Origin: Marchantia polymorpha subsp. ruderalis | Lineage: Eukaryota; Streptophyta; Marchantiopsida; Marchantiales; Marchantiaceae | Assembly (NCBI GenBank): GCA_037833965.1 | Contig: AP031352.1 | Location: forward strand, 600,501-664,500 | Direction: 5' to 3' | DNA: 64,000 bases | In this document: piece by piece, positions 13,301 to 63,104 of the stretch | How the letters are laid out: the number at the start of each line of letters is the position of its first letter | Position numbering within the stretch: position 1 is the first letter of the stretch | The notes under the pieces: model-generated | Told to the model about the DNA's origin: nothing | What the model saw: only the letters and a program-made list of their open reading frames with translations | Databases searched by the model: none | Translations under genes and position numbers: made by a program

Positions 13301-14500
13301 GAAACAAAAAAATGAAAGTAACATAACACGAATAAAAATGAACAGGGTCGCATGATGGAAATATGTGACAAATAAATTTTAATAAATTAAGGATACATAA
13401 GCATCATTTCTGTTTTTTCCCGCATTTCTCCTAGAGAAGTATGTGAGAGAGTTAATACATGATGGATGAGTGAGTGCAAGTAATACTTGGAGCAACAAGG
13501 AGAGTCAAGGCAGACTACATGATGTGGTTCCACGTCATGTTAGCGGCGTGTAGGAGGCGTAGTCAGAGGTTGGAACTTCTGCTGGAGTAAGAGCAATAAA
13601 GAATCAAATACAAATTTTTAAAAAAAATTATAGTTGTAATCGTCACTATTAGATAATATCATGTCACTATTGTCAATAGTGACAATACTTTATTTATTGG
13701 ATAGATTTACAAGTTCAAACCTAATGGTTTTTGATTTCTATATCACTAATAAGAGTTGACACTATTCAAAGGTTTAACTCTTAACTTTGGAAAAAAAATA
13801 TCTAACACATGAAAATTACAAATGAATAACAATGTTGATATAAAATGTAATTGACTATGAATCATGATTGATTAAAAATTTCATTTGCAAATCTAATATT
13901 AAACATACATCTAATAGCTAATCTATAAAAATATAAAGAAATCATACAAATTTTGATGTGAAATTCAGAATGTCAAAAAAGCATAAAATTTGATTAAAAA
14001 GATTCAAACTATATAAAATACACAAAGGATAAATTTGTTCATAATATAAATAAATAAATAAATATATAGAGAAAAGAGTACATGAGACTTTTCTTTCATC
14101 TATTGATATGGAAAAAAAATTAGAAGTAGTATAGACATTTTGGTTAGATAATATTTCTTTCATTCAAAATAAGAATTTTGAAATTTGATGTTAACATTTT
14201 AATATGAGATACAATAGATGTATAGTGAACTGATATATGAAATTTTTTGATGAAAGTATTAGGAATTAAAATTTCAATATGCTTGTAAGATTTGATTAAA
14301 ATTTTTTATTGGCAATGGAATTCTGTACTGTATTCATTTTATATAAAGAGAAACATATATTTTCTCTCTATTTGAAATCATTATTTTTTCAATTGAATTA
14401 ACATTGTTTAAACGTATGCAGATAATCAAGCAAAAATGAAGAAAATTTTTCAAGGCAGTGAAATTTTCTCTTGGTAAATAATAAGGATCTGATGTGATAT
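10301..14500. other. AT-rich intergenic block
   Basis: Visibly A+T-dominated sequence, about three quarters by eye, with many homopolymer runs. Two plus-strand open frames at 12091-12354 and 12889-13116 give no recognisable protein. A less AT-rich patch near 13430-13600 also gives nothing recognisable. An inverted repeat built on GTCACTATTG lies at 13663-13683. The block is probably decayed repeat DNA. Confidence 0.6.
13663..13683. repeat. Perfect 10-bp inverted repeat with 1-nt loop
   Basis: GTCACTATTG and its exact complement flank a single T. Related GTCACTATT or CAATAGTGAC strings occur nearby, around 12976 and 13642, which suggests remnants of a small repeat family. Confidence 0.75.
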
Positions 14501-14812: not shown

Positions 14813-16203
14813 ATGAAGCGTAAGTCGGCCCAGCTTGATTCGCTTAGCAACTCCGCCAGTGCCGCAGTGGTGGTGGATTTGCCCTCGCTCTCTGGGACGA
14901 AGGTTGGTAGTAATGCCTCGACTGTTGCGGCCGGAGGAGGTCCAGGCTATGAGCCTTTGGATTCCGACGTCATTCTACCCTCGGTGTTGCCTTTCAAGCG
15001 TTCACAGCTGCTAGATCGGTACCCTAAAGGGCACAGTCGCGGTCGACATTGGAAGCACTTAAAGCAGATAATTCAGGCGGAGAATTATCAGCTGTACCCT
15101 GCTGACGAGCCGACTTGTACGTGTACTCTAAACGTGAAAAATCTTTAGCTTCTGGAGAAACTTAGATGATTTGTCAGTTGTGCACGTGTTTTAACATACT
15201 GGTATCTGCTGTGAAATGGATCTGTCCGTCTGCACAGGGATGCCTTTTTGACATATGAACTCTTAGAATTTTTTTGTTTATGCCAGCTACGTTTCGCTCG
15301 AAGAGAATGTATAGAGGGAAGTGAGTGTCGAGCATAAATTCAAGAGGCGATAGTGAATACACCACGGAAATGGCAATTGTCACGAGTGTGCGGTAAAACT
15401 AGGACATTATGTTACGGGTAACTCCGAATGCAGGGCATTAGGGTAGGAATCTTTTAAGTGTATTAACAAGTGAGATTTTTTTGTGGCAGACGTAAGCATC
15501 GAGGCGCCTCCTTCGATGTATCCTGCAAAGAAATACTGTGATATTACTGGATTTGAGGTACGTACCCTGGCTTACCTATCACGTGGCTTGCAGTGAGTGA
15601 GTGGCTTTGTGAGTCTTTTTTGGTTCACTTATAATTGGCCTATGTAACTGCAATCTGCATGCCTCGTATATTGTTGATCGTATCATGCAAGATTGTTAAA
15701 GCTTGAAATCTTACAAGAGGTTCATTACCTGATTGTGTTTGGGTGGACTCAGTAATTGGAATGGTTGTAGTTGGTTGGTTCTCATGATCATAGTTGCAAT
15801 TTTCTCGACTTTCCTCTTGTAAATATGGAAAGTATCAGTAGAGTTAATAAGTGTACAGAATAATAGTTAATTCGATTCTCTTTTTGTTAAGTATTATTCT
15901 TTTAATCTCCTGAATGGAACATGTGTTTTCTGTCCCCAACCCGCGAAATGTTTTCTTCAATTTTTTAAGCATGCTTCCGGAGGCTTTAAATGCAAAGCCT
16001 GTTCAATCACGGTTTGGATTGCCTCGTAGAAGACTGTACTACGTTCCTGACCTGCGAAGTGTTTTACACAGGCGCCTTACACAGATCCAAGAACCAAATT
16101 AAGATACGCCAACGCGGACATCTTTAAGAGGATACGGTCACTGCCAGATGAGTTTATTCAAGGCTACTTGGCACTTCGAAATGCTGCTGTAATTATCAAG
16201 TAG
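14813..16203 (+). CDS. INO80C: INO80 chromatin-remodelling complex subunit C (YL1_C domain)
   Basis: Three exons: 14813-15116, 15490-15557 and 16072-16203, 504 coding bases, 167 residues. Both introns are GT-AG; intron 1 splits the TAC codon of Tyr102 and intron 2 is phase 0. Residues 61-92 (FKRSQLLDRYPKG, then GRGRHWKHLKQI-type sequence) and the YL1_C module (about residues 102-140, CDITGFEAPYTDP then LRYAN) match plant INO80C/IES6 proteins. These are nuclear subunits of the INO80 ATP-dependent nucleosome remodeller; IES6 is needed for the nucleosome-contacting Arp5 module. The N-terminal 55 residues are low-complexity, rich in Ser, Ala and Gly. The start is the first ATG in frame; upstream codons are open but lack ATG. 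The MutS2 gene begins 80 bp after the stop on the same strand. Confidence 0.93.
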
Positions 16204-16283
16204 CCATATTGGCTTTTGCAACTTGGACGGACTTGTACCACGAAAGTAGACTGGGAATACCTGCTGTCTGTAAAGTAATCAGT

Positions 16284-19200
16284 ATGGAAACTGTAATTGG
16301 ATCATCATCAGCCTGCCAAATGTCTTATTCTTTCGGCAGGTCTGCTGCATTGCAGAGTTATGTTCGAGTGGTGAAGATCTCAACAGATGCATCGGTGAAG
16401 AAAATGTGCTCAACATTAGTTTGCTTACCTCCACGCACCTTACATTGCGTAGGCCAACTAAATTCTGGACATTGTTCAGGAACCAATGGACATGCTTTAG
16501 GTTTTAATTGTCATACCCCTTCTAAAAGATTTCTTCTTAGTAGGATACGTGCACATACGGCCAATTTTGTATATAGATCAAGAATCTCAAATACAGACAG
16601 ACTCAATGTTCATCCGCGCTTATATAGGAGTAGATCCTTTTTGCAAGAAAAGGAAGGAGTAGCACAAGTTGAAGACGCAGGTGAAGAGAGCGAAATGAAC
16701 AACTTAGAGTCTGACGCCGACTTGGATGACCGATTTATCATTCAGGAGTCTCTAAATTTGTTTGAGTGGCCTGCAATATGCGCTCAGGTAGCCCAGTTTG
16801 CCTCAACTCCTATGGGCACGATAATTGCCTTAGATGGAAATCTGACTGTTGGATCCACGCAAGCTCAAAGCGAGGAACTGTTGGATCAAACTGCAGCTGC
16901 TTTTGCTTTGAGTAAACCTCTTTATTTCTCAGGCATCGAAAACCTCCAGGGTATTGTTGGAGATGCGCTATCAGGCAACGTCTGCGGAATCAAGGATCTC
17001 AGTTGCATAAGATCAACCCTTTTAGGTGTTCAAAAGGTCTATGATCAATTGTGTTGTCCATCTCCTGAGTCCAGTAATGAAAATATCTTAGCTCTACAGG
17101 CTCTCATTTCAGATTGTGATTTGTGTTCTGATTTGGTGGAGGAAATTGAGCATTGTGTGGATAGTACGCTAGAGACCGTTCTCGACAGGGCAAGCCCGGC
17201 TTTGGCAAGTGCAAGACTCAGCAGAAAAGAGAACGTTAAGGCTCTCGACTCACTACTGAAAGAAACGGCAGTGTGGGTTGTTCAACAAGGCGGCATGGAT
17301 TCTGTTGTTATCACCCGGCGAAGAGCCCGTTCATGTATTGCAGTGAGGTCCTCTCATAAGAATCTACTTCCCGGCGGAATAACTCTGGACGTTAGCAACA
17401 CGGGCACAACTTCCTTCATGGAGCCAGAACCTGCGTTGAAGTTGAATAACGAGGAAATGAGACTTGCTGGTGTAGAGAAGGCCGAAGAGCTAGCAGTCCT
17501 AGAAATGTTGACAAGGAAGTTCGTAGATAAAGCGGAGGTAATAATGGACCTTATGGGAAGGATTACAATGATAGACCTTGCTTGTGCCAAGGCCTCTCAT
17601 GCGAAGTGGTTGGGGTCTGTTAGACCTTTCTTCCATGATTCAGATGAATCAGATTTACTAGATGATTCCTTTATGGTTGATATTGAAGGGATTCGACATC
17701 CACTTCTTCTCGGGTCTACAAGCAAGTTGCCAGTCTCTGACAGGATCGGAGTTCTCCAGTCTACGTCAATGTCGAGACCTCATGTGACAAGTTCAAATAT
17801 GAAGGAGAATTCCAGAACTGCATCCACATTGAAACCTCCTGTTCCAGTTGATATCAAGGTGAAGGCGAAAGTTAAAGTTGTAACTATAACCGGACCCAAC
17901 ACTGGTGGAAAGACTGCAACTCTGAAGACTCTGGGAGTAGCTATCCTGATGGCGAAGGCTGGGTTGTTCCTCCCAGCTGTAGGTCAACCGAAGGTTCCCT
18001 GGTTTGACCATGTTTTAGCCGACGTCGGAGATGAACAGGTAACATCGAGAGATAGAGGTTGTATTGCAGATTTCTTGATGACCGTAACGATTTTACACCT
18101 TCATTTATTTACAGCAAAATATCGATTTCTTTGATTTGGCAGTCACTCGAGCGAAGCTTATCAACTTTTAGCGGTCACATTCGTCGTCTCCGACGCATTC
18201 TAGAGATTTGTACTTCTCGGTCTCTGGTTCTGCTGGATGAGGTCGGAGGCGGTACAGATCCAACAGAGGGTGCAGCTTTGGCCACTGCCATCTTGCGACA
18301 CCTATCTCTGAAAGTGAGACTGTGTATTGCCACCACACACAGTGCAGAACTTAAGGACTTGAAGGCTAAGGATACAAGATTTGAAAATGCCTCGGTTGAG
18401 TTTGATATCAAAACGTTGAGACCCACGTACAAAGTGTTATGGGGGGTTGCTGGACAGTCCAATGCCTTAGACATTGCGGAATCTCTGGGTTTCGACAAGG
18501 CCGTCCTAATTCGTGCAAGAGAACTTCTGGTGAAGATGAAACCTTCACAACTTGGGGTTCGCACGGTGGAGCTACTTGTGCCTCTTGTGAAGCAGCGAGA
18601 TGATCTGGTTGAACGTGCTAGAGTAGCATTTGACGTTCTTCGAAATGCTAAAGAATTACACAATGAGGTGGGTTCCCTTGATCTCTGTTGATTATATTTG
18701 AGGTATAGATTAGACTAGCTTTTTCTGTTGGTTGCGAACCTAAACTTTAACCCTGTATCCTTTTAGGAAACGTTACTCTGTGAAATTTTTTTAAAATGTA
18801 TTTGTTCATCGTTAAATTCATGGAGAAAATTAAAACACAAGCCTGTGTTAATAAACGTATATATTTCTACTTCATCTTCTTGTTAATATTCTAGGATAAT
18901 AAAGTGTGAGCATCTTTTTGATACTTCTTTTACTCTGACTGCAATTTTAAATTTTGCAGTTAAGTGCAGCAGCTGTCAATTTGCCCAAGCGAGAAAATGC
19001 CTCTAAAAGGATGCTAGCACAGGTGGTTGAGGACGAAATTGTTAAATGTAAGCTTGAAATCGAACAGGCAGTGGAGACGTTTCAAGAAAACTTTGAAACA
19101 GATAATGCCCTATCAATCAGAGACGTACATGCCGAAATAGTCTCTATCGTTGAGAAGTATACGTCTGAGAAGGGGCAAAGCACAGCCCTGGATTTCTTAC

Positions 19201-20187
19201 CCCCAGCAGTCAGCACTCCTAAAGGAATCGCCCAAGAAGCTGAATCGCTGACGGTAGGCGAATTGGTCCTCGTTAGGAGATTAAGTAAGACTCCAGTTAC
19301 TGTGGTTGAAATTCCAGAGAGAAGTGAGTACGTGACGGTGCAGCTGGGTAGCCTGAATATGCAGGTGAAACTGAACGAGGTGATAAAAATTCGGAGTGCT
19401 GGATCTGTTTCTGGGTCAAAGTCGACTGAGCAGGTTTGTTATTCCGTTGAAGTTTTTCAGTTACTCCTCTTTTTCGCAAGGAATGTAAGATGCTGGTACT
19501 AAGGAGTGTGACCAAAAGTGAACTTTCAATGTTAGAGGATAGGTGCCTGCTACTCTCAGACATCTATCATACAAATGTCCACAATGTTGAGTGGCTCTAA
19601 CTCTAACGGTAGCAGCTGATGTTTAGAAGTGACTAGACCACTCCATGTGGTTGTTGTCGCGAATCGGCATACTGCCATCATATCGGATGAGCAGGCTGTA
19701 CTACTGAATGTTCCTAATAGTCATTAAGGGCAAGCTCACCTACCTACCATGAGACTTTCTACGTCGTATACATACTACGTTTCTCAACTCATCAAAGCAT
19801 TGAGCAGTAAAGTTTATGCTAGGCCTAACTGAGAGGTCACGTCTGTTCTTTCTTCTGCAGGTAACAAACAAAACGAGACCCAACAGACAAACAAGAAATC
19901 AAGAGGATGGAGCAGGAACGTCAGATTTAGATAAATTCCAAGTTGCGGTGCAAACATCAAAGAACACTTTGGATCTTCGAGGCATGAGGGTTGAGGAAGC
20001 CATGCGAGAGCTTAATATGACACTTTCGACCAAAAGCCCAGGGTCAGTGTTGTTCGTCGTTCATGGGGTCGGTACTGGTGCAGTCAAGGAGGCTTCCTTG
20101 CAGACGTTGCGAAAGCATCCGTATGTGGCCAGATTTGAAGAGGAGAGCAGAACAAACGATGGTTGTACAATTGTTTATATCAAGTAG
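16284..20187 (+). CDS. MUTS2: Organelle-type MutS2 protein with C-terminal Smr domain
   Basis: Four exons: 16284-18038, 18143-18667, 18960-19433 and 19861-20187; 3081 coding bases, 1026 residues. All introns are GT-AG and phase 0. The first 110-130 residues are rich in Ser, Arg and Cys and poor in acidic residues, like a plastid transit peptide. The MutS core and clamp follow. The ATPase has Walker A GPNTGGKT (537-544), STFSGHIRR, Walker B LVLLDE (613-618) and the THSAELKDL switch. A basic and acidic coiled stretch then leads to the Smr domain with LDLRG (955-959) and HGVGTG (986-991), the motifs linked to Smr nuclease activity. Bacterial MutS2 limits recombination and rescues collided ribosomes; plant homologues are probably organellar. 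No catalytic motif is missing. ATTAAA at 20247 may be a poly(A) signal. The gene starts 80 bp after the INO80C stop. Confidence 0.93.
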
Positions 20188-21027: not shown

Positions 21028-21130
21028 TGTCGTGCGACTCAGTATCGTCATACATCGCTGACATGCTATACTCACAACTCGAACATACATACACAAGGAA
21101 CGAGAGTGTCCATACACAAAGGTATCATAA
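21028..21130 (-). repeat. Partial LTR copy beside the gypsy element
   Basis: About 103 bases aligning with 21411-21522 inside the adjacent LTR, with a few substitutions and a deletion of about 8 bases. In element orientation this is the 5' end of an LTR (TATGATACC, against TGTGATACC in the main copy). It abuts the full LTR after about 10 bases. It is either a fragment of an earlier insertion or a rearranged LTR. Confidence 0.75.
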
Positions 21131-21140
21131 CTAAAATAAG

Positions 21141-21519
21141 TGTCGAAACACAAGTACACAGAGAGTCGAACCAAACTCACTACTCGCAGGTAGGATCAGA
21201 GTCGAAGCTAGCGGGACTGACATCTCCCTACGCGAAAGGCTCAACTCGAAGAACTGACAGTTCTTCGAGCTCGCCTCAAATATATCCTTGGAAGGTGTCG
21301 ACTCCATCCAACACTCCTCGCCCGTCTGCCGCGACCCAACGTTAACCGACTCCAACTCGAACTCAACGTGTCTCAACTCAAATCGACCCAACGTCTCGAG
21401 CCATGACAGCTGTCGTGCGACTCAGTATCGCCATACATCATACATCGCTGACATGCTCTACTCACAACTCACACATACATACACAAGGAACGAGAGTGTC
21501 CACACACAAAGGTATCACA
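21141..21519 (-). repeat. 3' LTR of the Ty3/gypsy element
   Basis: Bounded by TG (21141) and CA (21519) on the plus strand, so in element orientation it runs TGTGATACC to TTTCGACA, about 379 bp. It follows directly on a purine-rich tract, as a 3' LTR should. It contains a perfect 11-bp hairpin at 21245-21269 with loop GAC. No matching second LTR is found to the right of 26670, so the ends are set by termini and tract position rather than by an LTR pair. Confidence 0.7.
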
Positions 21520-21535
21520 ACTCGCCCCCCTAGCT
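21520..21535 (-). other. Polypurine tract candidate
   Basis: In element orientation the run AGGGGGGCGAG lies immediately upstream of the LTR's TG terminus. This is the position and composition of the primer for plus-strand DNA synthesis in LTR retrotransposons. Confidence 0.7.
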
Positions 21536-21680
21536 GGCGATAAGGTCCCTCTAACTCCCAGGTAGCCCTATCTACAACTACATGCTATGCACCTTCGTGG
21601 GTGCGCGAACCAGTAGGCCGGGTGCTATGTCGCCCCATCGTTAATCGCCTATCTGCAATTCATAACATGTGAAGATCAAG

Positions 21681-22133
21681 TCATCTACACTCTGAAGTAC
21701 ATCGAGGACAAACCCACCGTCCAGTAGGAACAACATCGATAGGTGGAATCAAGCACGACATGTGCCATCCCCTAGAACACCTATCACACACCAACATATG
21801 GGCCGCCTGATCAGTTGAACTACATAACATGCACCTCAAGCCGGCACGTACAATCGCCAAGCTTGGGTCCATAGTACCATCCACGTTTGGGAGGTGGCAT
21901 GGCGCACAGTTGCGCACATGATCCTTCCAATCGACACCGTCACGACCCTCCAACATGAAAACTCCAGAAGGTAACACCTCTCGCACTCGCAAGATAGTGC
22001 GTACTGCCGTCACATCCAACGTAGTCGGTGCAGTCTGCTGTAGATAGACGTAGTCTCCCACGCGGAACCTACGAATCGATGATCGATAACCTCCTCCTTG
22101 AATAGTAGCATACCGCAACGTATCTCGGTGCTA
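21681..22133 (-). pseudogene. Pol C-terminus: integrase tail and PHD finger
   Basis: This 145-codon open segment is in the same frame as integrase, separated by a TAG at 22131-22133. Residues 17-60 (RRFRVGDYVYLQ onward) resemble the small beta-barrel at the end of gypsy integrases. Residues 96-140 form a C4HC3 PHD finger: Cys96, Cys99, Cys111, Cys114, His119, Cys122, Cys137 and Cys140. The diagnostic Trp135 lies two residues before the seventh ligand. PHD fingers typically read histone H3 tails, so a targeting role like that of the chromodomain in chromoviruses is inferred. All zinc ligands are intact although the element is dead. The zinc domain spans about 21699-21833. Confidence 0.85.
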
Positions 22134-23178
22134 AGCAATCGCAAGGTTCTCAAACGCTGCAGGCATAACTCTCTGAAAGAGCACTGCACGTTGAGAACAC
22201 ACTCTCACCCACATATCTGGATCATCAAGGTTCACCACCTCGCTAGACTCACGACGAATCGCTGCAGGCAAGTCTGGATCTCGGCCGTACAATAGAAAAT
22301 ATGGTGAAAACGAAGCCAAGGATGCTTGACGACTGAATCGATATCCCATGGCCAACCATGGTAACTGAATATCCGAGTTCCCAAGATGCCCCTTCTGTAG
22401 GCCATACTTGCGCAACGCTCTCTTCACCGTCTGTACCATCCGCTCAGCCAAACCATCCGCCTCTGGATGATCTCGGGAAGTAGTCCGGTGATCAATCAGC
22501 GTCTTGTCACACAAAACCTGAAACTCACCTTGAAACTCTGTCCCCTGATCGGTCAACACCTCAGCTGGTGCACCAAAGTGACTAAGCACCCTGTCAAGGA
22601 AAGCATATGCTACTCCCTCACTCGCCTTGTCAGGTAATGCCACCAACTCAATCCACTTGGAGAAATGCTTCACCATCACCAACACATACCGATGATGTCG
22701 TGTAGTCAAAGGTAGTGGTCCAGCAAAGTCCAAACTCCAACGGTAACCCAATCCCATGATAGGTAAGGGATGTAACTCTGGTGTCGGGGCATTGAACGAT
22801 GCCCTCACTCGATCACAAACCATGCAACGTGATACCAACTGCTGCACCTGCGTATGCATACCACGCCACCAATACTGACATAGGAGTAAGGTGTACGTAC
22901 GCTTCACTCCAAAATGTCCCAACTCCTCATGAGCATGCCTCACAATGCGTGCTCTCTGAGTTGGATGCGGTACTACCCGTACCCTACCCGTCCTCCCACA
23001 CTCGGAGAACATGTGGTCCCTCCAATCGGTATCTCTTCGCCCTCTGGAGAACACGATCTCGCTCCTTGGCACCCATTGTGCCTGGCACCATACTAGTCCG
23101 TAGGAACTCCAACACCAACGCATCATCGTGAACATCACGCTGGTCCACACCATCATCCTCAACCTCAGGATCCGAAGA
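22131..23178 (-). pseudogene. Pol: integrase
   Basis: Contains the HHCC zinc-binding N-terminus (HEELGH, then CMVC), followed by the catalytic core. The DDE triad is D145 in WSLDFAGP, D205 in LTDQGTEF and E240 in GLAERMVQ, numbered from the first codon at 23162; the last two are spaced as D35E. The true reading frame arrives from the RNase H side, then shifts by one base near 22990, so the first 55 or so residues of the 23162 frame are probably out of phase. It ends at an in-frame TAG at 22131-22133. Integrase inserts element cDNA into the host genome. Confidence 0.93.
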
Positions 23179-24814
23179 CTAACTATCTACTCTCTGACTA
23201 GAGTAAGATGTCAAGTGGTCCTCACAGCTAGAGGCTCCACAAAACCAACACATGAAGGCCGATGCATGCCAACCGGACACCATCTCCTCATCAACCTCAC
23301 CATGCCACCTAGCTCTAGTGTCATCCTCCTGGCTAGTGCATGGGTTCCGACTCAAACCGTCGGCATCCAGGTTCGCAACTCCAGGCCTATGCACCACCTG
23401 AAAGTCGTACTCCTGTAAGATGAGAGCCCACCGTGCAAGCTTCCCTGTGAGCTTGTCAGACTCCATCAACCACTTGAGCGGTTGATGATCGGTAACAAGG
23501 GTAAATTGCGTACCAAACAAGTAACACCTGAAGTGTGCCACAACCCACACCGTTGCCAAACACTCTCCCTCGTACGAACTATACCGCGACTCTACTGCAT
23601 TGTTCGAACGACTAGCGTACGCAATCACAAACTCCTTGCCCTCATCATCACATTGCGTCAACACCGCTCCAAGTCCCAACATACTCCAATCAGTGTGCAA
23701 TTGGTATGGTCGACCTCTGATAGGTCTCCTCAAGATGGAAGCGGCCACCAACCTGGCCTTGAGCTCAACAAAAGCTCTCTCCTGCTCATCTCCCCATTGC
23801 CACTCCTGATCCGACTTCAGCAACTGGTTCTAAAGCTTCGCTATAGCACTGAATCCCTTCACATATCTCCGGTAATAGTTCGCCAAACCCATGAATGCAC
23901 GAACTCTACTCACATCCGCTGGACAAGGAATGCGTGCAATAGCCTCCACCTTTGCCTGCTGAACTCCCAAACCACCTGGGTAGATCACATGACCCAAGTA
24001 CTCCACCTTCTCCTGGAAAAACCTACACTTCCCAGGATGTAACCGCAGACCATGAGCCCTCAACCGCTCAAGCATAGTCTGCAAATGTATCTGGTGTTGC
24101 TCCACCGTGTCGCTAAACACCAAGATATCATCAATGTAACAATCTGACGAAATCTAGCCCCGCTAGAATCCTGTCCATCACTCTCTGGAACTCGGCAGGT
24201 GCATTCTTCAACCCAAAGGGTAAGAATCGCCACTGATACAAACAATCCTTGCCGTGAGAGTTGACACCCCAAAACGCTGTCTTGGCCTTGTCCTCCTCTC
24301 GAATCGGCAACTGATGGTATCCCGCCCGAAGATCCAAAGTACTAAAAATTTTCGCATGTCCCACCACATCGAAGATCTCCTCAGGTGTAGGCATGGCATA
24401 CTTATCGGCCTTCGTCTGCCGATTGATAGGACGGTAATCTCCACACATCCGCCTATCCGTGTAGTTGCCATGTACATCCTTCTTCGCTGGCATCACAGTG
24501 GCTGAAGCATACTCACCATGCGACAACTCCACTAACTCAGCCTCCAATAACTCCAACGTCCGACTCTTAATCAAGTCCCTTTCCATATCACTATATCGAT
24601 AGGGACGACGAAAGATTGGCGTATCACTAGCCAACTCTATTCGTATGCCGGGTCCAATCAAAGTACCCAACTCCTTCATACTGAAGGCAAAACAACTCCT
24701 ATAGTCACGTAGGAATTGTATCAACCGTCGCCTCTCTCCTCCGGTGATCTGAGAACCAATCGATGGCTCCCACTCCTCCTCCATGGACCCACAAGAGGGA
24801 GGCGATACTGTCAC
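23179..24814 (-). pseudogene. Pol: reverse transcriptase and RNase H
   Basis: The RT fingers and palm include RRMCGDYRPINRQT, STLDLRAGYHQLPI and FLPFGLKNAPAEFQR. The catalytic YIDD box lies at 24127-24138 but in another frame from the upstream RT, because of an extra base near 24140. The thumb and connection continue to a TAG at 23830-23832, then RNase H follows in frame: LHTDWSMLGLGAVL, YSSYEGECLA, VTDHQPLKWL and NLDADGLSR. The frame stops at TAG 23179-23181 and reads on into the integrase linker. Together these enzymes would copy element RNA into cDNA. Confidence 0.94.
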
Positions 24815-24820
24815 TGGTTG

Positions 24821-26298
24821 CTATGACACCTCCTCCAAAGGAGGGCTCTCCGTACCCTCCTTCGTAGCAACCTCCCCGTGACTAACATCTCCAACTGCAT
24901 GGGCGTCTACTCTCGCAAGTCCTCTCGTCACGTCCCATGAACTCCAAGGATGACGAATATCTTGCAAGTCGCCCCCAGCCATTGCCACTACCGTCCCGGT
25001 AGGCAATGAGCTAATAAGTGGTGTAACAACTACCAAATCTGCGCGCAAACGGCGTTGCTCGGCCAAACCCAAGCTCACAATCCACGTCAAGCAGTTCAGG
25101 TCCATAGCCTGATCCAAAACCTGACGACGCGATGCCTCTGACACTGAAGAAGCCGCGGTCACACCAGTAAGAAACCCCATCGCACGCTCTCTCTCATCAG
25201 CGTTGGGCTCCACCAACTGATGTAGGACACTGTCCCACAGTAGTCCAGGTCCCCCATCACGATATGCATGTGATGTCGGATAACTGACCAACGTAGGCAA
25301 AGCCATCCGAGGCTGACCTACGTGGTTCATCAATGCCATGGGTGACCTATCCGCCACTCTCACCACCTGAGAGTATCGAGAGACATCCAAGATCATGTCA
25401 ACGGTGAGGGTAGGATCACGATGCACAGAATCATACGCATGACGCAATATCCCTCGTGGTACAAGGTTGGTCCACCACAAACGTGCACGATGAGCACGTG
25501 AACCAACCCTCGCAACATCCAACAACACTGCTGATCCAATCCATGCCCTGTCCTCATGGACACTCGCCATCAACTGGGCCGAGTGTCACCCAACAATGGT
25601 ACGTTCTCTAGAATGTATGCGGGAGAACGTGTCTGCTGCTCTTGGAGATGACGTAACACTCGTAGCATCTCCCAAAACATCCGAGATCTCGGGTCATGTA
25701 ACCCTGCTCCATGCCCAGCGCGTGTGTGCCCCTGACATGGCCATCCTGCAATCACCAAATCGATATGTCCAACTCGATCGAGGTCTGGCGCCCCCAACAA
25801 TGAAATGTCTGAACGCAACGCCTTCTGGTATCCTCGAACAGCTGATCGCGGCAACAACAAAGGAAAACGCTGCATCAACTGTGTAACATGTCGTGAAGAA
25901 ACCCGACGTGCAGTCTCGTCCTTCTCCACGTACAAGTATCTACGTACAAGAATACCTGACTGCAACACTGCAGCCAAACCCGTGCTGATCCCTCCAAAAA
26001 GATCCAGCAAACAAACACCCTCTGGAGAATACTCCCATACGATAGGTGTAGTAACTAATGGTGATAGGGTGCTAAGACCACATACTAGCCGACCACCTGA
26101 GACTCGCTCTGCCTCTGCTGGTAAAGAGGCCTCACTCCAAGCCTTCTTCACCAACCTATCAGCCTCATGCTGTAATGCGTGGCAAGAATCCCAAAGTGGA
26201 ACATCCAAAGATGATGACACTGCCGCTGCGAGACTCAGCATCTCCTCCACCTCCTCATGATGTAGAGTATCCTCGGCTGACCTGTTCCCCTCCAACAA
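24821..26298 (-). pseudogene. Pol-embedded DNMT3-like cytosine-5 DNA methyltransferase
   Basis: Two overlapping open segments, 26298-25570 and 25573-24821, are offset by one frameshift near 25570-25590. Motifs occur in canonical order: I (LLDLFGGISTGLAAVL, SAM binding, from 26010), IV (VIAGWPCQGH, catalytic Cys codon 25735-25737), VI (ILENVPLL), VIII (AHRARLWWTNL), IX (ERERAMGF) and X (QAMDLNCLTWIVSL, to about 25060). The unrearranged order excludes a DRM-type enzyme. The GISTGLAAVL and AHRAR wording resembles animal and plant DNMT3. About 95 residues precede motif I and about 75 follow motif X before the TAG at 24821-24823. Such enzymes methylate carbon 5 of cytosine using SAM. Catalytic residues survive, but the breaks mean no full product is expected. 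Confidence 0.92.
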
Positions 26299-26307
26299 GT
26301 CATCAGG

Positions 26308-26670
26308 TCATGTGAGCACTCCACTGAAACCCGCAATAGAGGCTAAAACTGCAGGAGAAGATCCAAGAGGTCGATCTCGAGAAATGAACCTCACAGGCAG
26401 CTCACTCATACGTCCATCACCGGACTCCCAACCAGGGCGATAAGCTGCCGTCTCCGTCCAATAATCCATCCGAAATCCCATCGGATATAACACCGCTCCA
26501 TCAACAAGCACATCATATGACTCTGCTGATGTAACCACCGCTCGAACTCCAAACTGCGAGCTATCCTGAGCATGACCATGCCTCAACTGCACTGATATGC
26601 GCTCTCTGGTCATCCTGTAAGACCTGTCGTTGGTGCCACCGAGTGATGTTTGAATCTGGAACGGACAAGG
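26308..26670 (-). pseudogene. Pol: C-terminal half of retroviral-type aspartic protease
   Basis: The segment ESYDVLVDGAVLYPMGFRMD is the typical protease C-terminal half of this gypsy clade, followed by YRPGWESGDGR and a basic stretch. The upstream half with the D-S/T-G active site is missing. The reading frame can be followed to about 26670. The frame ends at TGA 26308-26310 and resumes in the same frame into the methyltransferase, so the stop is a point change. Confidence 0.75.
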
Positions 26671-29600
26671 CTAATTTGTATTTTTACTTTATTTTTACTA
26701 ATTTGTAAAATCTTCATACAAGCCTATACATTTCATATTCATACCATATACTTTACGCTTTTGCTATGAACTAGTTTCAAAAACAATGAATTCTTGATGA
26801 CAATTGTCACGAGCTATCAATCATATGTTCATGAATTAGCTCTGATTCAAAGTTTGGCATATATTAAGTCAATATTATCTCCAGTACTTATATTCTTGTA
26901 GATCAAGATGCAAACAATACTTTTTTGACCAAAATTAATATTTTTTGCAATCTTTGAAACTTTTGGACTTACAAAAGTTGAAATCTGAACATGATGAAAA
27001 TTACAAATGTCATTGCTAGTATCAAATTTCAGATCAGTACTAAAGTTGAGATGAAAGATTTAGAAATAGTTACCTATAGTCTATATTTACATCTTAAACA
27101 ATGTTCCACGGAGTATGTTTTAGTAAGAAACAAATTCCAAGTATTAAACAACTGATGTTGCTTCTTTGATGAAATTGCTCATGATGCTACTTTACTTGGA
27201 CTGATTAGAGATGTTTATGGACAGCGTGACGAGGAGGAGAATTGATGGTTTTTTAGTTGGTGATTGACTTGGAGAAGGAAAACTCTTGATTCCTTATTAC
27301 TGACACTACTGTTGTAAGCCTGAAAAAGGCGGCAGTACGGAAGTATGTCTTCATAAGAAAATATAATGTAACAGCATGTACCGAAGAGAGACAGGTAGAA
27401 AGCCATGGTAAGGTTACGCATGGCAAGAAAACGGGATGTCGACAAAGATAAAAAAAACCGGGATGGCCGACAAAGAGGATACGACACAATGCTTTCCAAT
27501 CTCGAACATGCATTTTATTCTCGACATTCATGTCTGAGAAATAATACTCTAGATCTTTGAAAGTCTGCCTGCTCGCTCTGGCAGAATAAAACCGAGGAAT
27601 CAGATCCTTTGACATTAGACGATATACGCTGGATTGATGATTCGGGTCCCACGTCGGGCAGGCAGAACAGTGAAATCATACAAATTGAATTGTTTCAAAC
27701 GAGCAGTCGGTCTTGGGCTTTTTCTGAAGCAGGCCAGAGCCACTGCACAAGTGTAGCTGTGGTGACTGCCCCCGTGTTGTCTAGGGGCACGCACGTACCA
27801 CGAATGCCTATGCGGTGGGGACGTGGAGCTATTCTGATGTTTCTGGTATCATGAAAGTCGGAAGAAACTGCTATGTGGTTTGCAACAAGCCTAATTACAG
27901 TGTCATGTAGACTTCACTGCAGGTCATGGAACCATAGCACTGACAAAATCCTAAAAGCTGCTTTTACTGGGGCTTGTGCAAAAGGAGCATGATAGCAAGA
28001 CCATTAAAAGAAAGGCAGGCAGAAACCGCCGAATAAGGGCCAGGAGTAAAGGCAGGAGAAGCGAGGGATGGGCAACTGTCTCGTGATATAAAGTTATTTT
28101 TTGTCACAGAGGGTTCAACACCTATGATGTTGCTACCTCCGAATTGCAGGAAGAATTTTGTGACTCAGATAAATGGAAGAAATTGACACTTGAAAGTGAT
28201 GAAGTTGAAGTTCAAATCAGCTCCTGTTCTGCTGGAAGTTTGAGTGGTCTCTATTCTGGTCGATTTACAAAAAGAATTTCATGCTGCCATGCTGCCTATA
28301 AAACGACATGGAAACAAGGATAGTGCTGACGCCGTTTTAAGACATGAAGGTAAATGATGAAAGATTCGACCCTTGATTAAATTTGCACAGTTATCTGCAT
28401 ACCTTGCATTGCAGTTTATGAGGAGTCCGGTCTGCAGTTGACATCGATCCATTTCCGGGTGTAGACCGCCAAGTCTCCAGCTCTCTTATCAAAGAACAAC
28501 AACGTCGTCGTCGTCTTTGATAATCTCCATCTGACTTCAAGGTCGATCACCTTTGCCCATATTCACAAGCTCGTGTTCTGGTCATCCGGTGATTCGAGCG
28601 TTCTGAAGCTCAACTGCCACTACCACCCCTATTCCTAGAAACTGTAACAGCTATGTCAGCGTTGTATTTAGTTGAGCCCTTGAAGTGATGAGATCAAGTC
28701 CAGCACACAGCCGTTCATATGCAGAGGCGTTTGAATTTGAGCCAACACCAATTCTCATAATGCCTCGAGATGCAAATTTAGCACTTTGAAATGATTGAAG
28801 GCATGATGGAATTTCAGTCCAGTGCTACCCGAGCTCAGAGCAATAGGAGACTCGACGGGTAGATGTGGAAGCAAAAGAAGCAATGTTGACTGACGCAGTC
28901 TTCGACTGAAATTGAAGGCGGACTGGTGGATGAAGAGATACTATCTACCTCAACCGTCGATTGCAGTGAGCTTTTGCTTGTCAATACCTTATTTGCGACA
29001 TGTTACAGCCCATTACTCGACTCTCAGGTAAGAGTGTAACGCCAAGAGCAGGGTATTCTTTCACGTCCTCGATGAAAATTACTCCAGAAAAATTGGCAAG
29101 TACAAATTGACGAAAGTTGCATTTGTTAATGGTATTGGTAGAGAGATCAAGCTCGTGGGACCCAAAGGGTCAAAAGGCTGGAAAATTTTATACTAGCCAA
29201 ACATCCACTGACCAGGGAAAGTGAAATTGAAAGTGAAGCTAACGTTAAGTCTGCGGAAAATTGCTTTGGCGTAATTCTGGTCGAAATAAGGTGGGATAAA
29301 GAGTGCATCTCACGTAAGAAGATGGTCGACATCTAAAAACCCTTCTGCATTTTCGGACAGAAAGGCTACTTTTAAGCCTCAGCTGTTAAAGCAAGAAAAA
29401 TTTTGGGATCTGGTCAAGACTCCAGAAGCTCTGCATTCGAGAATACCTGAAAGTTCCCGACCATTTCTCCTGTTGTAGTCATCGTCCCTGCCGTTTGCGG
29501 AAAGACTATAGGATTCCCGAAGTCGCGGGACTCGTAGCTCTCTAGCAGCTCCTCTTTCTAGTCAGTTTGTTTAGTTCATGGTCCAGAAAATTCTCAAATA

Positions 29601-32408: not shown

Positions 32409-32605
32409 GCAGCCCCGACGATTATACTCATGGCAAAGAGCTCCAGTACTGTCAAGTGCTGCAACAGCGGGGTTAGGCCAAACGGAGGCACAAAAGGACT
32501 AGCGTAGATGCGGTGAACGTCGGGTCCAACCTCGAGCTCTGAATGCCCTGTTCTTGGTTTCATGCAAATCGTTTGCACAGTTTGTTTGTAGCAGGCTCGG
32601 CAGAA

Positions 32606-35496
32606 ATGGCCCGAAGCGCGAGGGGCTGCTTGCAGGCTGCTGCGATGAACCTTGTACCATGCTTCTTGATCGTGCTTTTGAGTCAGCTCGTGATCCCAGC
32701 CAGCGGGCAGAGGGCGCGCGTCGCAGCCGATATTCAAACAATGCTGAAAGTTCGAGACGAGCTTTTCGGAATTCCCGAGAACAAGATGATTCTGGCCGAT
32801 TGGAGCACAGAGCCGGACCCGTGTAACTGGACTAGAGTAGAGTGTGAAGGCGTGGGCGCGTCCGCCACCGTGAGGAGGATCGATCTAAATCAGAGGAATT
32901 TGGCCGGCCCCGTTCCTCCGAGCTTCGGGCTCCTCCTCAATCTGACCCACATCAGCGCGGACGACAATCGGTTCGATAGCATCCCCGCGAATTTTTTCAA
33001 AGCGAAACAGCTGAGATTCATCTCCTTCCGCAATAACCTCATCTCCGGCAGCGTGCTCGAGAGCCTGAGCGCGTTCCAGTCCCTGCGCGTGCTGCTCTTG
33101 GGCCAGAACCTGCTCTCCGGGCGCATCGACTCGCTCTCGCGCCTCAACAAGTCCGTCGTCCAGGCCATCGACCTGGCGGGCAACGGCATGCAGGGCAATC
33201 TGAGCACGCTCGCCGGCTTCACGAAGCTCACCGTCCTGCGCCTCGGGCAGAACCGGCTGACGGGCGAGCTGGCGACCATTCGCGACATGCCCGCGCTGTA
33301 CGACCTGTCGCTGGAGGACAACTCGTTCAGCGGCAGCGTCCCTCTCAGCACCCTGTCCGGCATGGTCTCCGTCAACCTGTCGCGGAACGCGCTGCAGGGA
33401 CCGTTCACATTGGACGACATTTTTGTACCGGGAACCATCGCCTCGCTCGATCTGTCCGACAACAGGTTCTCGCAGGTGGCTCCCCAATTTTCCGGCTCGA
33501 GGAATTCGTCCGCGCAGTCCACCGTCGACTTCTTCTGGGCCCGGGGCGTGGACAAAATTCTGCTCGGCGGCAACGGGCTCTCGGGCTCCGTCGTCTCCTT
33601 CCCGGAGTCGGCGGCGACCTTGAACCTGTCGCACAACTCGCTGGGCGGCGACTTGCCGCAGACGGGCAAGGCCACCTTCTTCGCCGGCGTGGAGACGCTC
33701 CTTCTGAACAACAACAGCTTCACTGGCCCCATCCCGGCGGGGTTCTGGACCATGGCTAACGCCGTGACCATGGACCTGAGCCGGAACCAGCTGAACGGGA
33801 CTCTGCCGGCGGGGCCCCTCTTCATGCCCAATTTGCAGACCCTCAACCTGTCGTGGAATCTGCTGTCCGGCGGCATTCCTGCGGCCATCTCCAATCTGAC
33901 CAGGAACTTCCGGCTGCGCACCGTCGACCTCTCGTTCAACAACTTGAGCGGCCCTCTGCCGCCGGGCCTCCCGCAGGGCGACAACTACTCCTACTCCTTC
34001 ATCGGCAACCCGGGCCTGTGCAGCGACGACGACTCATTCCGGCGAGCCAACTTGCTCGGGCGATGCTCCAAGCCCTCCAAAGGTACGCAAATTCGGACTT
34101 TTGCTCGGTGGGAGCCAATATGGTACTTCAATACATATTTCTATCCTCTGTTTAATCCTTGCTAATTTCTTCTTTTTGAACGGGATTTTATTATTTTGAA
34201 AACACGTCAAATATATGTACGGGGCCTTCCGACGGCCTGACTGCCGGATGGCCGGGTTGTTTGAGCTGACTGACTTATTGACGGCGGCGGATTGCAGCGG
34301 TCCAAGCGCTATGGGCAGGAGTGGGGAGCATGCTGGTGCTGGTGCTGGCGATTGTCGGCGTGCTGCTGGTGCTGTGGCGCAAGCAGATGGTGAAGGACAA
34401 CCGGATGGACGCGGATCTGGTGAAGGCGGTGAACCACGGGCTGATCAGCACGAGGCTGATCCCGCTGCGCCAGCTGAAGACGGCGACGTCGAACTTCGCT
34501 GAGGATGCGAAGATCGGCGAGGGGGGCTTCGGGTCCGTGTACAAGGGGTTCCTGGAGGGCAAGGAGGTGGCCATCAAGAAGAGCTCGAACGCCATCCTGC
34601 AGCTGGTGGCCAGCAAGCAGATGTTCATGAACGAGGTGCAGATCATGTCCAGCGTCAACCACCGATACCTGGTGAGCCTGCTGGGCTGCTGCATGACCAA
34701 CAAGAGCGCGCTGCTGGTGTTCGAGTACGTCCCGCAGGGCACGCTGGCCGAGCACCTCTACTGCCGCCGGGGCCAGGGCCTAGACTGGAACCAGCGCCTG
34801 AAGATCGCGCGCCAGACGGCCGAGGCTTTGAGCTACCTGCACTTCACCGCCAACCCGCCCATCTTCCACCGCGACGTCAAGTCGGCCAACATCCTGCTGG
34901 ACGACCAGCTGAACGCCAAGGTCGCGGACTTCGGCATCTCCAAGCTCGCGCCCAACCTCGACGCCACGACGCACTACTCGTCGCTGGCCGTGCAGGGCAC
35001 GCCGGGCTACATCGACCCGGAGTACTACGTCTCGTACCAGATGACCGGCAAGAGCGACGTGTACAGCTTCGGCGTGGTGCTGCTGGAGCTCATCACGTCG
35101 CGCGCGCCGCTCGACTACCGTCGCGGCGAGCGCGACAGCACGCTGGTCAAGATGGCCACGCACCTGGTGCGCACGGACGCGCTGCACCTGCTGGTGGATC
35201 CCATGCTCATGATCGTCTTCGACGACGAGGAGGAGGTGAAGAAGTCGATTCTGAGCGTGGCGGAGTTGGCCCTCCGCTGCGTCGATCGCAGCCCCGACGA
35301 CCGCCCCGACATGCAGCAGGTGGCCGTCGAGATCGAGGCGCTGAGCTCCGTGCACTACAACGTTTCCAAAGCCGACGACGACGACATGGACGTAATTCCC
35401 ATAGCGAACCCCGTCGCGCGCCGCCCGCAGGCCTCGTACACCAGCTCCACCACCGGCCCCGGGAGCCGGGAGTTCCAGTCGCCTTTCGAGAGGTGA
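32606..35496 (+). CDS. Leucine-rich repeat receptor-like protein kinase
   Basis: Two exons, 32606-34082 and 34298-35496, with a GT-AG phase-1 intron; 2676 coding bases, 891 residues. The signal peptide contains CFLIVLLSQLVIPASG; ATGs at 32543, 32606 and 32645 are all possible, and 32606 is a compromise. The LRRNT domain ends with the DPCNW cap (71-75). About a dozen or more LRRs with LxGxIP/LxGxLP-type spacing follow, then a transmembrane helix (about 501-519), a juxtamembrane segment and a kinase. Kinase motifs are GEGGFG (566-571), VAIKK (Lys586), Glu605, HRD (683-685), DFG (703-705) and GTPGYIDPEYY. All catalytic residues are present, so an active RD Ser/Thr kinase at the plasma membrane is predicted. 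The kinase wording resembles WAK-like and LRK10-like groups more than BRI1. The ligand is unknown. Coding GC is strikingly higher than in the flanks. Confidence 0.95.
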
Positions 35497-37087: not shown

Positions 37088-39813
37088 TTGGTCAAGTGGC
37101 AAAATCCGCGATGCAGAAATCCTACAGTGGATCAGGATCGGCTGCATGGACAACGCGAATAACTGGAAATTTTCGAGTTGCAGGGATCGTAACAGCACAG
37201 CTGCAGCGCTAATAAGTTGGAGCTATTTTTGGAACAAATCCATCCTCGCCATTTCCTTCATGCTTGGAAAACCTTCAGGGTACCTATCTTGGACCCCGAT
37301 TTAACTTCGGTTTCATACTTCGGAGTTGTTTACTAAATATGCATTGATTTTGAAAAAACAAATGATGCTTGTTCGTAATCAAAGTATACATTTTTTTGTT
37401 CCAGTGAGGTTAAGTAAAATGTTGTTGTAAAGTGTGAAATCTAATCGGTAATTTATTAGAAAATTTAGTTCATATTTGAGAGTTTTAATGATTTGACTAT
37501 GCAGTTGAACAATAATTCAACTTATGAAACATAATAATCTGAAAACAAAATTTGATAAGTAATACTGTATTCAAGTAACAGTAGTAGATTACAACAACGT
37601 ATTCTCATATAGAGGTAAATATGTTATTATCTCATCTCTCATAAGCAAGTATTGTGCACATACGTGCACAATACTTGCTTGAGTATGTATAGAATACGAA
37701 TAACAGGTCTCATGACAATTTTGTATAGATTTCGGAAATAAATATGAATGAATTCTAAGTTACTAACCACGAAAAAAAAAGTTCAAAAAAGTTAGTCCGC
37801 GGAGTTTTCTAAAATCTTTGGATAAATGGCAGCAAGCTGGCAAGGAATTATATGAGAGATAATGAAAGCAAAAAAAACATATAAAAAATGTGTTTGAACC
37901 ATTTGTACAACTAAAAAAATTGTTTGTTTTTAGACTTCATTAATTTATATCTTATGTTTATGACGTGGTATTTTTAACAAAAGATCAATTTTATTTTGAT
38001 GAATGCAAGAGAGAACAAAAGTATGTATTATGTTTGAAAAATTTGGATGTATTCCAAAATATTTGGCTATGGAATTTTACAAAGATTTGAAAATAATAAT
38101 GATATCTCTTTTGTTCTTTTTTAATCTAGCAATTTGTGTTCAAACCAATTATGCAAAATCTCTTTTAGCAAAATATGAGTATCCATGTATTAGTATTTTC
38201 ATGAAGTATGTGATTTAGAGATTCATTTTAGATCTCAATAACAATGATTTGTTATCTCAATTTTTGTAGTTTATAATTTCAATGATTCTCTGTTAAATTT
38301 TTTCTTCAAATCACAACACACAATTTATAATGATCACAATAAAAATTATAAATTTTTTTGCATTAAATTTTATCTAACAAAACTTATGATTCCATAATTT
38401 CTAACATGCACATCATTTTAAGATTAATTAAAATAATATTTTTGGGATGAATTATGTAACACATCCTATAGTTTTAATTATTTTTTGAAAAAAAATAACA
38501 ATATGTAACATCATAATCTATCAATTTTTTTTCCCAAAAATTAAACAAAGTAACACAAAACATCAATTTAATACAGGTTATTTTTCATGCTTTGAAAAAT
38601 TGTATTCCAAACAATTTCAAATTCATAATTTCATATGGATCAATTTGCAACCCGTTTTTATTCAAATAATAATTTTTTGGGTATATTTTTAAATAAATTT
38701 TTGAAATGATTGTTAGAATAAATGATATGATGATATTATGAGTCAATATAATAGATGTAAGAACATCATAATAATTTTATTTTTTTATCATTTTAGGCTA
38801 GATTTACAAGAATAAAAGTCAAAACTATAGACAAATTTAAATTTACTATGAGTCTAATGTTATTTATGAAAAGAGCTTTGCACCTTGTGTACGTGTAAAT
38901 GTGTCTGTTACGGATAATCGGAGATCAAAAAAAGGTAAAGTCAAATTTACTTTTGACATATTATGATTGTTTGACATTGTGTAAAAATATTCTCTCAATT
39001 ATTATGATGAAGCCAACAAAATTCACGCAAAAGTAATCAGCCTTGTTGTTCGAATTAAAAGTGTTGGATCCGACCACAATCAAGGAATATATCTCTGAAT
39101 CTCTAATTACACAATCAAAATGTGAAGATAAAGATTTAAAGTAATTGAAGTAACGATGAGTGTATTTTGTTAGTCTGAGTTTTTGTTTGACCACAACCAA
39201 TTGACAGTCAGACACATAGTAAAACACAAGACATGAAGATAACGTGGTTCATCCACGTGCACGATTACGTCCACGGCTGAAACACACGACATAGAATATA
39301 TTGCAATAGCAAAAAGTACAATATAATCTGAAATCACTAGGATTAAGTATCTCCGGTACTTGCGACCTAGCCATATTTCCTAACTTCATTTAGCTGGTAT
39401 CGAGATTACTCCTTCACAGAAGTTAACCTTAACAATTTTTTCCTTAATTCATGTTAATGGAAGTATAAACTCATTATCCTATAATATTACTTCGTGGTAA
39501 GTTTTAGAAAAAAACCTAACTTAAGATCTTCTTGTCAACAAAGTTAACTAGAAGTAGGTCGTAGCCATAATTGGATGGAGTAATAATATAAAGAGCTAAT
39601 TAATAAACCTGCTGGCATAGAGGGAGCAATAGATTCCTTAACCTATATGATTAGTACTCAAAAAATTCTAGAAGAAAACATAACACAATGCCCCACTTTA
39701 TACAAAAAATTAACTAGTTTTAAGCCGTAGCCATCACATAATAGAGTAATTATATTAAGAAGTATTTGAATATATTATGTTAGAAAACTCTACCCGTGCT
39801 TCACATGCAAAAC
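37088..39813. other. AT-rich intergenic block
   Basis: Low-GC DNA from about 37.3 kb. It contains a perfect hairpin at 37643-37680. Near 39240-39285 is a GTGGTTCATCCACGTGCACG stretch followed by TACGTCCACGGCTG, which resembles the end region of plant copia LTRs. Two diverged copies of a TTAACTAG...GTAGCCAT segment lie near 39542 and 39708. No gene is recognised. Confidence 0.5.
37643..37680. repeat. Perfect 17-bp inverted repeat, 4-nt loop
   Basis: AAGCAAGTATTGTGCAC (37643-37659) pairs exactly with 37664-37680 around loop ATAC. No ORF or transposon is attached. It could be a remnant of a small inverted-repeat element or a structured transcript. Confidence 0.9.
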
Positions 39814-40140
39814 CAGCATAGTAGTACAATGTCGTGTGAAACTCTTGAAAGTAATAACATTGATCAACGCATGAGTTGGATTGAGTTTACCGTCTGTCTT
39901 GATTAACTCAATCATTTTATTAGACACTTCTTGTTTGATAAAATGTTATTTAACGTCAATGTGTTTAATTCTGCTATTCATAAATAGATTAATAATCAAA
40001 TGTATAGCACTCTAGCTATCACAATGAAGATAGATCACATCTTGTGTCAATACCATTTCTATGATAAGTCTGTACTTCAACCTCTAGGTTGAATCTCACT
40101 CAAGTTTATTTCAGTTGGCTTTGCAATAGCTCACCATGAA
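39814..40140 (-). pseudogene. Ty1/copia RNase H relic
   Basis: The minus strand from 40029 reads LHCDS, stop, SAIHL, then RIKHIDVK, stop, HFIKQEV, then LIKTDGKLNPTHALINVITF. These are the copia RNase H signatures LHCDSQSAIHL, TKHIDVxYHFIRE and NPAD. Weaker similarity (an STLDSRFM-like STTEAEYM) extends to about 40140 with frame changes. Several stops show that the copy is old and dead. A candidate LTR remnant lies downstream, near 39240-39300. Confidence 0.8.
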
Positions 40141-48166: not shown

Positions 48167-48202
48167 TTCATCAACTCCATATGAATATATGGAGTTGATG
48201 AA
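48167..48202. repeat. Perfect 16-bp inverted repeat, 4-nt loop
   Basis: TTCATCAACTCCATAT (48167-48182) pairs exactly with 48187-48202 around loop GAAT. It lies in AT-rich non-coding DNA, just after sequence with TTTAGGG-like units. Confidence 0.9.
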
Positions 48203-50738: not shown

Positions 50739-50834
50739 TAGAAAATTACTGTTGTTTAAACATGATGTAGTGATCCACCATTTATTTAGAAAATTACTGT
50801 TGTTTTAACATGATGTAGTGATCCACCATTTTTT
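50739..50834. repeat. 48-bp tandem duplication, two copies
   Basis: Units 50739-50786 and 50787-50834 share TAGAAAATTACTGTTGTTT and a downstream GATGTAGTGATCCACCATTT, with only one or two differences. Non-coding. Confidence 0.9.
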
Positions 50835-63033: not shown

Positions 63034-63104
63034 GCATCGGTGGTCTAGGGGTAGAATAGTTCCCTGCCACGGAACAGACCCGGGTTCGATTCCCGGCCGA
63101 TGCA
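63034..63104 (+). tRNA. tRNA-Gly (anticodon GCC)
   Basis: A 71-base cloverleaf: acceptor GCATCGG pairs with CCGATGC plus discriminator A. The D arm is TGGTCTAGGGGTAGA. The anticodon stem GTTCC/GGAAC encloses loop CTGCCAC with anticodon GCC at 63066-63068. The T arm is CCGGG-TTCGATT-CCCGG. There is no intron and no encoded CCA. It is a standard eukaryotic nuclear glycine tRNA transcribed from its internal A and B boxes. Confidence 0.98.

Follow-up and report, generated by a model that had tools for sequence, protein, structure and literature searches.

Retrotransposons that carry a DNA methyltransferase (DNMT), and with it the chemistry by which hosts such as plants silence mobile elements, have been reported from dinoflagellates and from the charophyte Klebsormidium (PMC5890265). 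The closest known system to the Marchantia element analysed here is KnitGypsy-Dnmt3 of Klebsormidium nitens (de Mendoza et al. 2018, PMC5890265). As described in that paper, KnitGypsy-Dnmt3 shares with the Marchantia family the Gypsy domains, a DNMT3-type methyltransferase (MTase) with canonical motif order and purifying selection on this MTase; according to a figure legend, it also has DIRS-like repeats in the order A-coding-B-A-B. Both also show the odd pairing of DIRS-like split repeats with an integrase of the DDE type (PMC5890265). The Marchantia family lives in a land plant and numbers at least a hundred copies, whereas K. nitens is described as having fewer copies than Symbiodinium (PMC5890265). 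In the Marchantia family, the MTase lies before a conserved UAG in the Gag-protease ORF; in KnitGypsy-Dnmt3, it is placed in the Pol polyprotein ORF (PMC5890265). The Marchantia integrase carries a C-terminal PHD finger, and the terms PHD and readthrough are absent from the main text of PMC5890265. The dinoflagellate elements SymbioDIRS-Dnmt3 and SymbioLINE-Dnmt are described as encoding a cytosine DNMT under selection, as the Marchantia family does, and the DIRS type also shares the A-coding-B-A-B repeats (PMC5890265). However, they belong to different classes, and the DIRS type uses a tyrosine recombinase instead of the rve-type integrase of Marchantia.

A 2025 survey mentions DNMT3 in retrotransposons "in streptophytes and dinoflagellates", citing PMC5890265 (PMC12344493), and a passage of a 2019 review states that transposons with DNA methylases are not found in land plants "such as tracheophytes" (PMC6338049). 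Literature titles and abstract openings, a scope outside which subscription papers and preprints fall, held no report of the family in Marchantia or any other land plant. As far as literature titles show, the land-plant family, with its copy number and integrity, is new, as are the placement of the MTase ahead of a conserved UAG, its PHD finger and the 4-bp duplications around split repeats.

The window copy and its family in Marchantia

The window, which is the whole 64,000-nucleotide stretch of Marchantia polymorpha DNA that was analysed, contains on its minus strand a decayed, 5'-truncated Ty3/gypsy copy with a DNMT3-like cytosine-5 MTase (Table 1). The copy begins inside the protease, so only the C-terminal part of that domain is present; alone, this remnant gave zero Pfam matches. 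As the initial annotation had claimed, DNMT-type motifs follow each other in canonical order, and the MTase lies between the protease remnant and reverse transcriptase (RT) on one strand, as seen from ORFs and Pfam. Pfam DNA_methylase matched the ORF at 26307-25570 above the cut-off (1.7e-9). The C-terminal half (25585-24821) had no Pfam match by itself and is up to 96% identical to other copies. The ORF list shows frame breaks and nonsense codons in the MTase, RT and RNase H-integrase parts, and the window copy itself is dead.

Table 1. Parts of the minus-strand element copy, in window coordinates
Feature	Position	Strand	Evidence
MTase-gypsy copy; gag and catalytic protease part absent	21028..26672	-	blastn, 96-97% to L011-L015, ~5.66 kb
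Aspartic protease, C-terminal part	26308..26670	-	ORF; aligns with protease region of other copies' ORF1
DNMT3-like C5 cytosine methyltransferase and spacer	24824..26307	-	PF00145, motif positions
MTase motif-bearing core	about 26040-25030	-	motif positions
MTase motif I	26007-25990	-	
MTase motif IV, GWPCQG	25746-25729	-	
MTase motif VI, ILENVP	25614-25597	-	
MTase motif VIII, GSRAHR	25504-25487	-	
MTase ERERAMGF	25195-25172	-	
MTase motif X, QAMDLN	25111-25094	-	
In-frame UAG between MTase and RT, context UCA-UAG-CAA-CCA	24821..24823	-	
Reverse transcriptase, two ORF pieces	23830..24820	-	PF00078 on each piece
RNase H	23179..23829	-	PF17917 (1.1e-35), PF17919
Integrase, H2C2 and rve core	22131..23186	-	PF17921, PF00665
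Integrase C-terminal end with PHD finger	21681..22130	-	PF00628 (6.3e-11); PDB matches PHF12, CHD4, KDM5/Lid, PHF21A
Terminal repeat B1	21411..21522	-	99.1% to L014 B repeat
Terminal repeat A2	21132..21408	-	81% to L014 A repeat
Terminal repeat B2, element 3' end (...CACGACA)	21028..21132	-	88% to L014 B repeat

The family was searched for in a 241.5-Mb Marchantia assembly of 9 contigs, in which the window is G000:C3:600501-664500. The N-terminal half of the MTase gave 551 first-look candidates; the 150 that were scored, window copy included, were 81-100% identical, which excludes chance for the window MTase. Two subfamilies were distinguished, with about 95% and 84% identity to the window copy. 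The search for intact frames succeeded: counted by eye, a stop-free frame of 1348-1365 codons accompanied 26 of the 150 scored MTase matches, and a stop-free ORF2 of 1042-1045 aa was found in 43 of the best 150 RT matches. Twenty copies picked for long open frames were studied more closely. ORF1 had 1355-1365 codons in 19 of them (L017 has an additional stop), and ORF2 was intact in 15 of these 19. The family has at least a hundred copies in Marchantia, and many look intact.

Linkage of the MTase to the element was also examined from the RT side, where the best 150 of 2893 candidates were scored; more distant gypsy families lie outside this count. An MTase match was located within 3 kb upstream of 115 of these RT matches, at the expected spacing in 98, and at 3-9 kb in 4 more. 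Among the 31 without a listed MTase match, the C-terminal half directly adjoined RT in 17 (by eye). In 12 of the remaining 18 loci (14 plus the 4 distant ones), at least 50 MTase-domain residues adjoined RT. In total, 144 of the best 150 RT matches keep MTase-domain sequence, many as remnants only. The proposal of a DNMT3-like enzyme as a family trait of a land-plant Ty3/gypsy element is therefore supported, and the concern that other copies of the family might lack the MTase did not bear out. Four of the 150 (L040, L051, L058, L059) retained only the end of ORF1, with at most 25 MTase residues, and in L041 and L054 the stretch examined (2.0 or 1.4 kb) was devoid of ORF1 sequence. L040, L041 and L059 have a stop-free ORF2 of 1042 aa with little or no MTase sequence; copies with intact pol but without MTase therefore exist.

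Two further features were observed among these loci. The MTase remnant begins at residue 1164 in L046 and L062 and at residue 1166 in L053, which may reflect a shared deletion or insertion point. L020 (G000:C2:20.745-20.755 Mb) contains a 1584-bp repeat that is 99.9% identical; this implies tandem element copies with a period of ~8.3 kb, such as a circular or joined intermediate could produce.

Architecture, termini and the conserved UAG

The complete element has the order A1 - leader - Gag-NC-PR-MTase - UAG - RT-RH-INT-PHD - B1-A2-B2. ORF1 contains zinc knuckles, a protease motif and the MTase; in L012, its Pfam Gag match (E 0.006) is below the cut-off, and the protease is recognised by motif only. 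ORF2 of L012 contains RT, RNase H, an H2C2 and rve integrase and the PHD finger (Pfam). The Gag-PR-RT-RH-INT order with an rve integrase, seen in L012 and by Pfam in the window, is that of Ty3/gypsy. ORF1 and ORF2 of L012 have no recombinase domain and carry PF00665 rve instead, which does not fit a DIRS element. Chromoviruses are Ty3/gypsy elements whose integrase has a C-terminal chromodomain, a domain of the chromatin-reader type. The Marchantia family has the same gypsy pol order, with a PHD finger in place of the chromodomain and with the MTase and split repeats in addition. The leaders of two subfamily B copies (L025, L027), between A1 and ORF1, contain a sense ORF that runs for ~117 codons from its Met; the leaders of three subfamily A copies lack a sense ORF this long.

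No paired direct LTRs were found in 10-kb stretches, most of which lack the 5' end. Ordinary LTRs were rejected when five longer copies, with both ends, showed split repeats: A1 lies at the 5' end and B1-A2-B2 at the 3' end. In these copies, the A repeat is about 270-300 bp and the B repeat 112-119 bp. The complete element measures 10.5-10.8 kb in three subfamily A copies and, by arithmetic, about 12.3-12.5 kb in two subfamily B copies. All five elements end in TG...CA and are flanked by 4-bp target-site duplications (GTGC, TACT, GGTT, ATCT and TGTC, read by eye), which demonstrates integrase-type insertion. A1 and A2 are 99-100% identical and B1 and B2 100% identical, indicating that these five insertions are recent. 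For DIRS-like elements, the split-repeat junction has been proposed as the template that restores the cDNA ends; by analogy, the B1-A2 junction could play that part here, for both ends of the cDNA.

The initial annotation had placed the MTase inside a gypsy pol. In full-length copies, it instead closes the Gag-protease frame, just ahead of the conserved UAG. That annotation had also read point breaks in the MTase stretch. One of these, a 1-nt deletion near 25581 that breaks the frame, reflects genuine decay. The UAG at 24823-24821 does not, because an identical UAG is present in all 19 other copies examined, and a decay stop between MTase and RT was rejected on this ground. Across the 19 copies, the stop context is UAG-CAA in all and UAG-CAA-YYA in 18, with L015 departing from YYA. 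The 72 residues between the MTase domain and the UAG are weakly constrained (dN/dS 0.61), so conservation of the protein is unlikely to account for the retention of the UAG. The best evidence that the context is functional comes from the distant relative L038, in which UAG-CAA-UCA recurs with the same domain order and an MTase only 48% identical. We take UAG-CAA-YYA to be a readthrough signal of the tobacco-mosaic-virus type. Plant viruses have readthrough signals of the form UAG-CARYYA. The Marchantia signal resembles them in that UAG followed by CAA-YYA stands between two in-frame ORFs, with readthrough only predicted; unlike them, it divides Gag-PR-MTase from RT-INT. Gypsy-type rice retrotransposons are among the readthrough candidates cited in PMC2754532.

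Class, selection and relatives of the methyltransferase

By profile and by structural model, the MTase is grouped with DNMT3A/B, and its predicted fold is DNMT3-like. DNMT3A/B are the nearest solved structures, well above DNMT2. The motifs are canonical and unrearranged and include the catalytic Cys, and DNMT3 is a closer match to the domain than DRM, DNMT2 or bacterial enzymes are. Motif IV reads GWPCQ and does not match the PCN of DNMT3, as seen in the DNMT3A alignment; PCN is typical of DNMT3, not defining. A DRM-type enzyme was rejected, given the canonical motif order in place of DRM's rearranged order and DNMT3A/B as nearest solved structures. Two host DRM-like genes in the same genome, identified by reading of translations, have the rearranged order. 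The 50 matches listed for the MTase in one search include no DRM entries, which excludes nothing. In a viral fold search, 9 of 86 matches reached E 0.001 or better; the named ones were C5-MTases of phages or chloroviruses, apart from one DNA polymerase.

Motifs were scored in 28 loci; because L002, L003 and L007 are repeats of L009-L011, these loci stand for 25 distinct copies. All 28 have motifs I, IV and VI, 27 have VIII and IX/ERA, and 25 have X. A separate alignment of 25 sequences (L012 and 24 of 45 relative proteins) showed invariant catalytic Cys, ENV-motif Glu and motif VIII Arg; a recognisable motif IV was missing in 5 of the 45 relatives (P0002, P0007, P0026, P0041, P0045). Between subfamilies, dN/dS was 0.138 for the MTase, 0.152 for the Gag N-terminal part, 0.158 for the protease and 0.066 for RT, among copies picked for open frames and in pairs that are not independent. 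Within subfamilies, the values were higher and scattered (MTase 0.200 in A and 0.225 in B, with pairs up to 2.07). The between-subfamily value bears out purifying selection on the MTase, read from sequence comparison. Along ORF1 of the A and B copies, dS between subfamilies spans a nearly threefold range, which suggests recombination or gene conversion between the subfamilies.

Named relatives came from M. polymorpha, M. paleacea, Riccia sorocarpa, Calypogeia fissa, Sphagnum fallax, S. troendelagicum and one bacterial MAG; the others among the matches listed were mostly metagenome proteins. None was named Klebsormidium among the 45 relatives of one search and the 120 listed of 206 in another. 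Viral contigs gave two weak relatives (L036, L037). Among the metagenome proteins, P0038, P0039 and P0042 carry the MTase after RNase H and before integrase; P0040 and P0043 have it just ahead of integrase. These five formed one clade (support 100), apart from the Gag-PR-MTase clades, in an MTase tree rooted on a DNMT3A fragment, with L038 included and L014 left out; the domain therefore holds two polyprotein places in different lineages. L038 (CADCWO010000201.1, 1-9285; 9285 bp) is a complete-looking coding unit with Gag-PR-MTase, UAG-CAA-UCA and RT-RH-INT-PHD. Its contig has an exact terminal overlap of 127 bp, which points to a circular or tandem assembly. It is filed under a cyanobacterial (Synechococcales) MAG, which is probably a binning error involving a eukaryotic contig. 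The MTase of P0069 (Sphagnum) is 74% identical to Marchantia copies over 75% of the query, whereas host MutS2 is 59% identical between Marchantia and Calypogeia. The high moss-liverwort identity of the MTase may reflect slow evolution or horizontal transfer.

Predicted role and competing explanations

In other readthrough retroelements, the Gag-side product is the main one and the extended product is minor. By analogy, most ribosomes would stop at the UAG, giving Gag-PR-MTase as the main product, and a minority would read through and add the RT-integrase part. Since the MTase belongs to the Gag-side product, it would be made at Gag level and many copies would be built into particles; the element's own cDNA would then be its likeliest substrate. 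The MTase may methylate new cDNA inside the particle or the pre-integration complex, so that a new copy arrives already marked. Such a mark might shield the copy from being sensed by the host, or determine the chromatin state where it lands. We regard it as an even bet that this recently inserted Ty3/gypsy family makes its MTase at Gag level by UAG readthrough and carries it in particles to methylate its own cDNA.

The integrase may contribute to this process. Several of the PHD fingers of PHF12, CHD4, KDM5 and PHF21A bind unmodified H3 tails, as does the ADD domain of DNMT3. The PHD finger of the Marchantia integrase, which resembles readers of the unmodified H3 tail, might help in site choice, and the element may unite reading and writing functions, which DNMT3 holds within a single protein. 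The fuller proposal is tentative and, in our judgement, somewhat doubtful: a de novo MTase packaged at Gag stoichiometry through UAG readthrough, together with a PHD-bearing integrase, would methylate the cDNA before integration, read target histones and constitute an uncounted source of 5mC.

Alternatively, the MTase may limit the element itself, mainly marking integrated copies for maintenance silencing by the host and giving no protection to the cDNA. The family might then persist because the host is less damaged; a similar idea was raised by the 2018 authors (PMC5890265 Discussion), and a tolerated element would be in keeping with the relatives found in liverworts and Sphagnum. The copies also mutate like methylated DNA, with a C-to-T bias in all contexts. 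In subfamily B, singleton C-to-T changes numbered 18/376 in CG, 21/394 in CHG and 53/1372 in CHH, against 12/1977 for A/T transitions; the counts are quoted from this set only, as the A set is dominated by L009, whose ORF2 is disrupted. CpG observed/expected was 0.72 in 16 copies and 0.90 in the window, and TG/CA was 1.34 and 1.12, respectively. However, host silencing explains both the C-to-T excess and the low CpG with raised TG/CA, and needs no element enzyme. Selection for a copy that restrains itself is also hard to sustain, and expression at Gag level, as predicted, suggests a role in the particle; we consider self-limitation improbable. In the window copy, transitions were more frequent in CHG (18/394) than in CG (5/431); as a signature of the enzyme's target site, this excess was rejected when it was not repeated in subfamily B, and no context-specific signature of this kind was found in the window copy and subfamily B.

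An effect in trans, by which the MTase would alter host chromatin or compete with host methylation in favour of the element's own transcription or integration, would agree with the high copy number with intact frames and with a chromatin-reader-type PHD domain in the same element, but its benefit would be common to every other element, and we think it distinctly improbable. The MTase might instead act on RNA, or have a structural role in nucleic acid binding and not methylate DNA. It stands in one frame with Gag-NC, and RNA methylation was suggested for the dinoflagellate LINE DNMTs (PMC5890265 Discussion). The invariant Cys, Glu and Arg, and nearest solved relatives that are DNMT3A/B and not DNMT2, make such a role very improbable. 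A chance nested insertion, or a passenger in a single copy, would suit the broken window copy taken alone, but it is rejected as virtually impossible in view of MTase-domain sequence in 144 of the best 150 RT matches, the open frames, the purifying selection and the same architecture in L038.

With this family, an element carrying a DNA methyltransferase is now found in a genetically tractable land plant with published methylomes, where the reason for carrying such an enzyme can be asked. Methylation studies and DNMT gene counts in Marchantia should consider element-encoded enzymes, and the conserved UAG yields a specific prediction on enzyme dosage in the particle. If methylation by the element occurs as proposed, expressed copies would contribute uncounted 5mC in addition to the five DNA methyltransferases given in a Marchantia methylome paper (PMC5784723).

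In the remainder of the window, very AT-rich stretches (10001-14000, 38001-42000 and 48001-52000; 23-30% GC) lie between GC-richer gene segments. A MutS2/Smr-type gene lies on the plus strand (16152-20187); it is 99% identical to M. polymorpha subsp. ruderalis over 68% of the query, compared with 65-68% to Riccia and 59% to Calypogeia. An ORF that by eye reads like a leucine-rich-repeat protein (32543-34165) and a tRNA gene (63034-63104, Rfam) are located on the plus strand.
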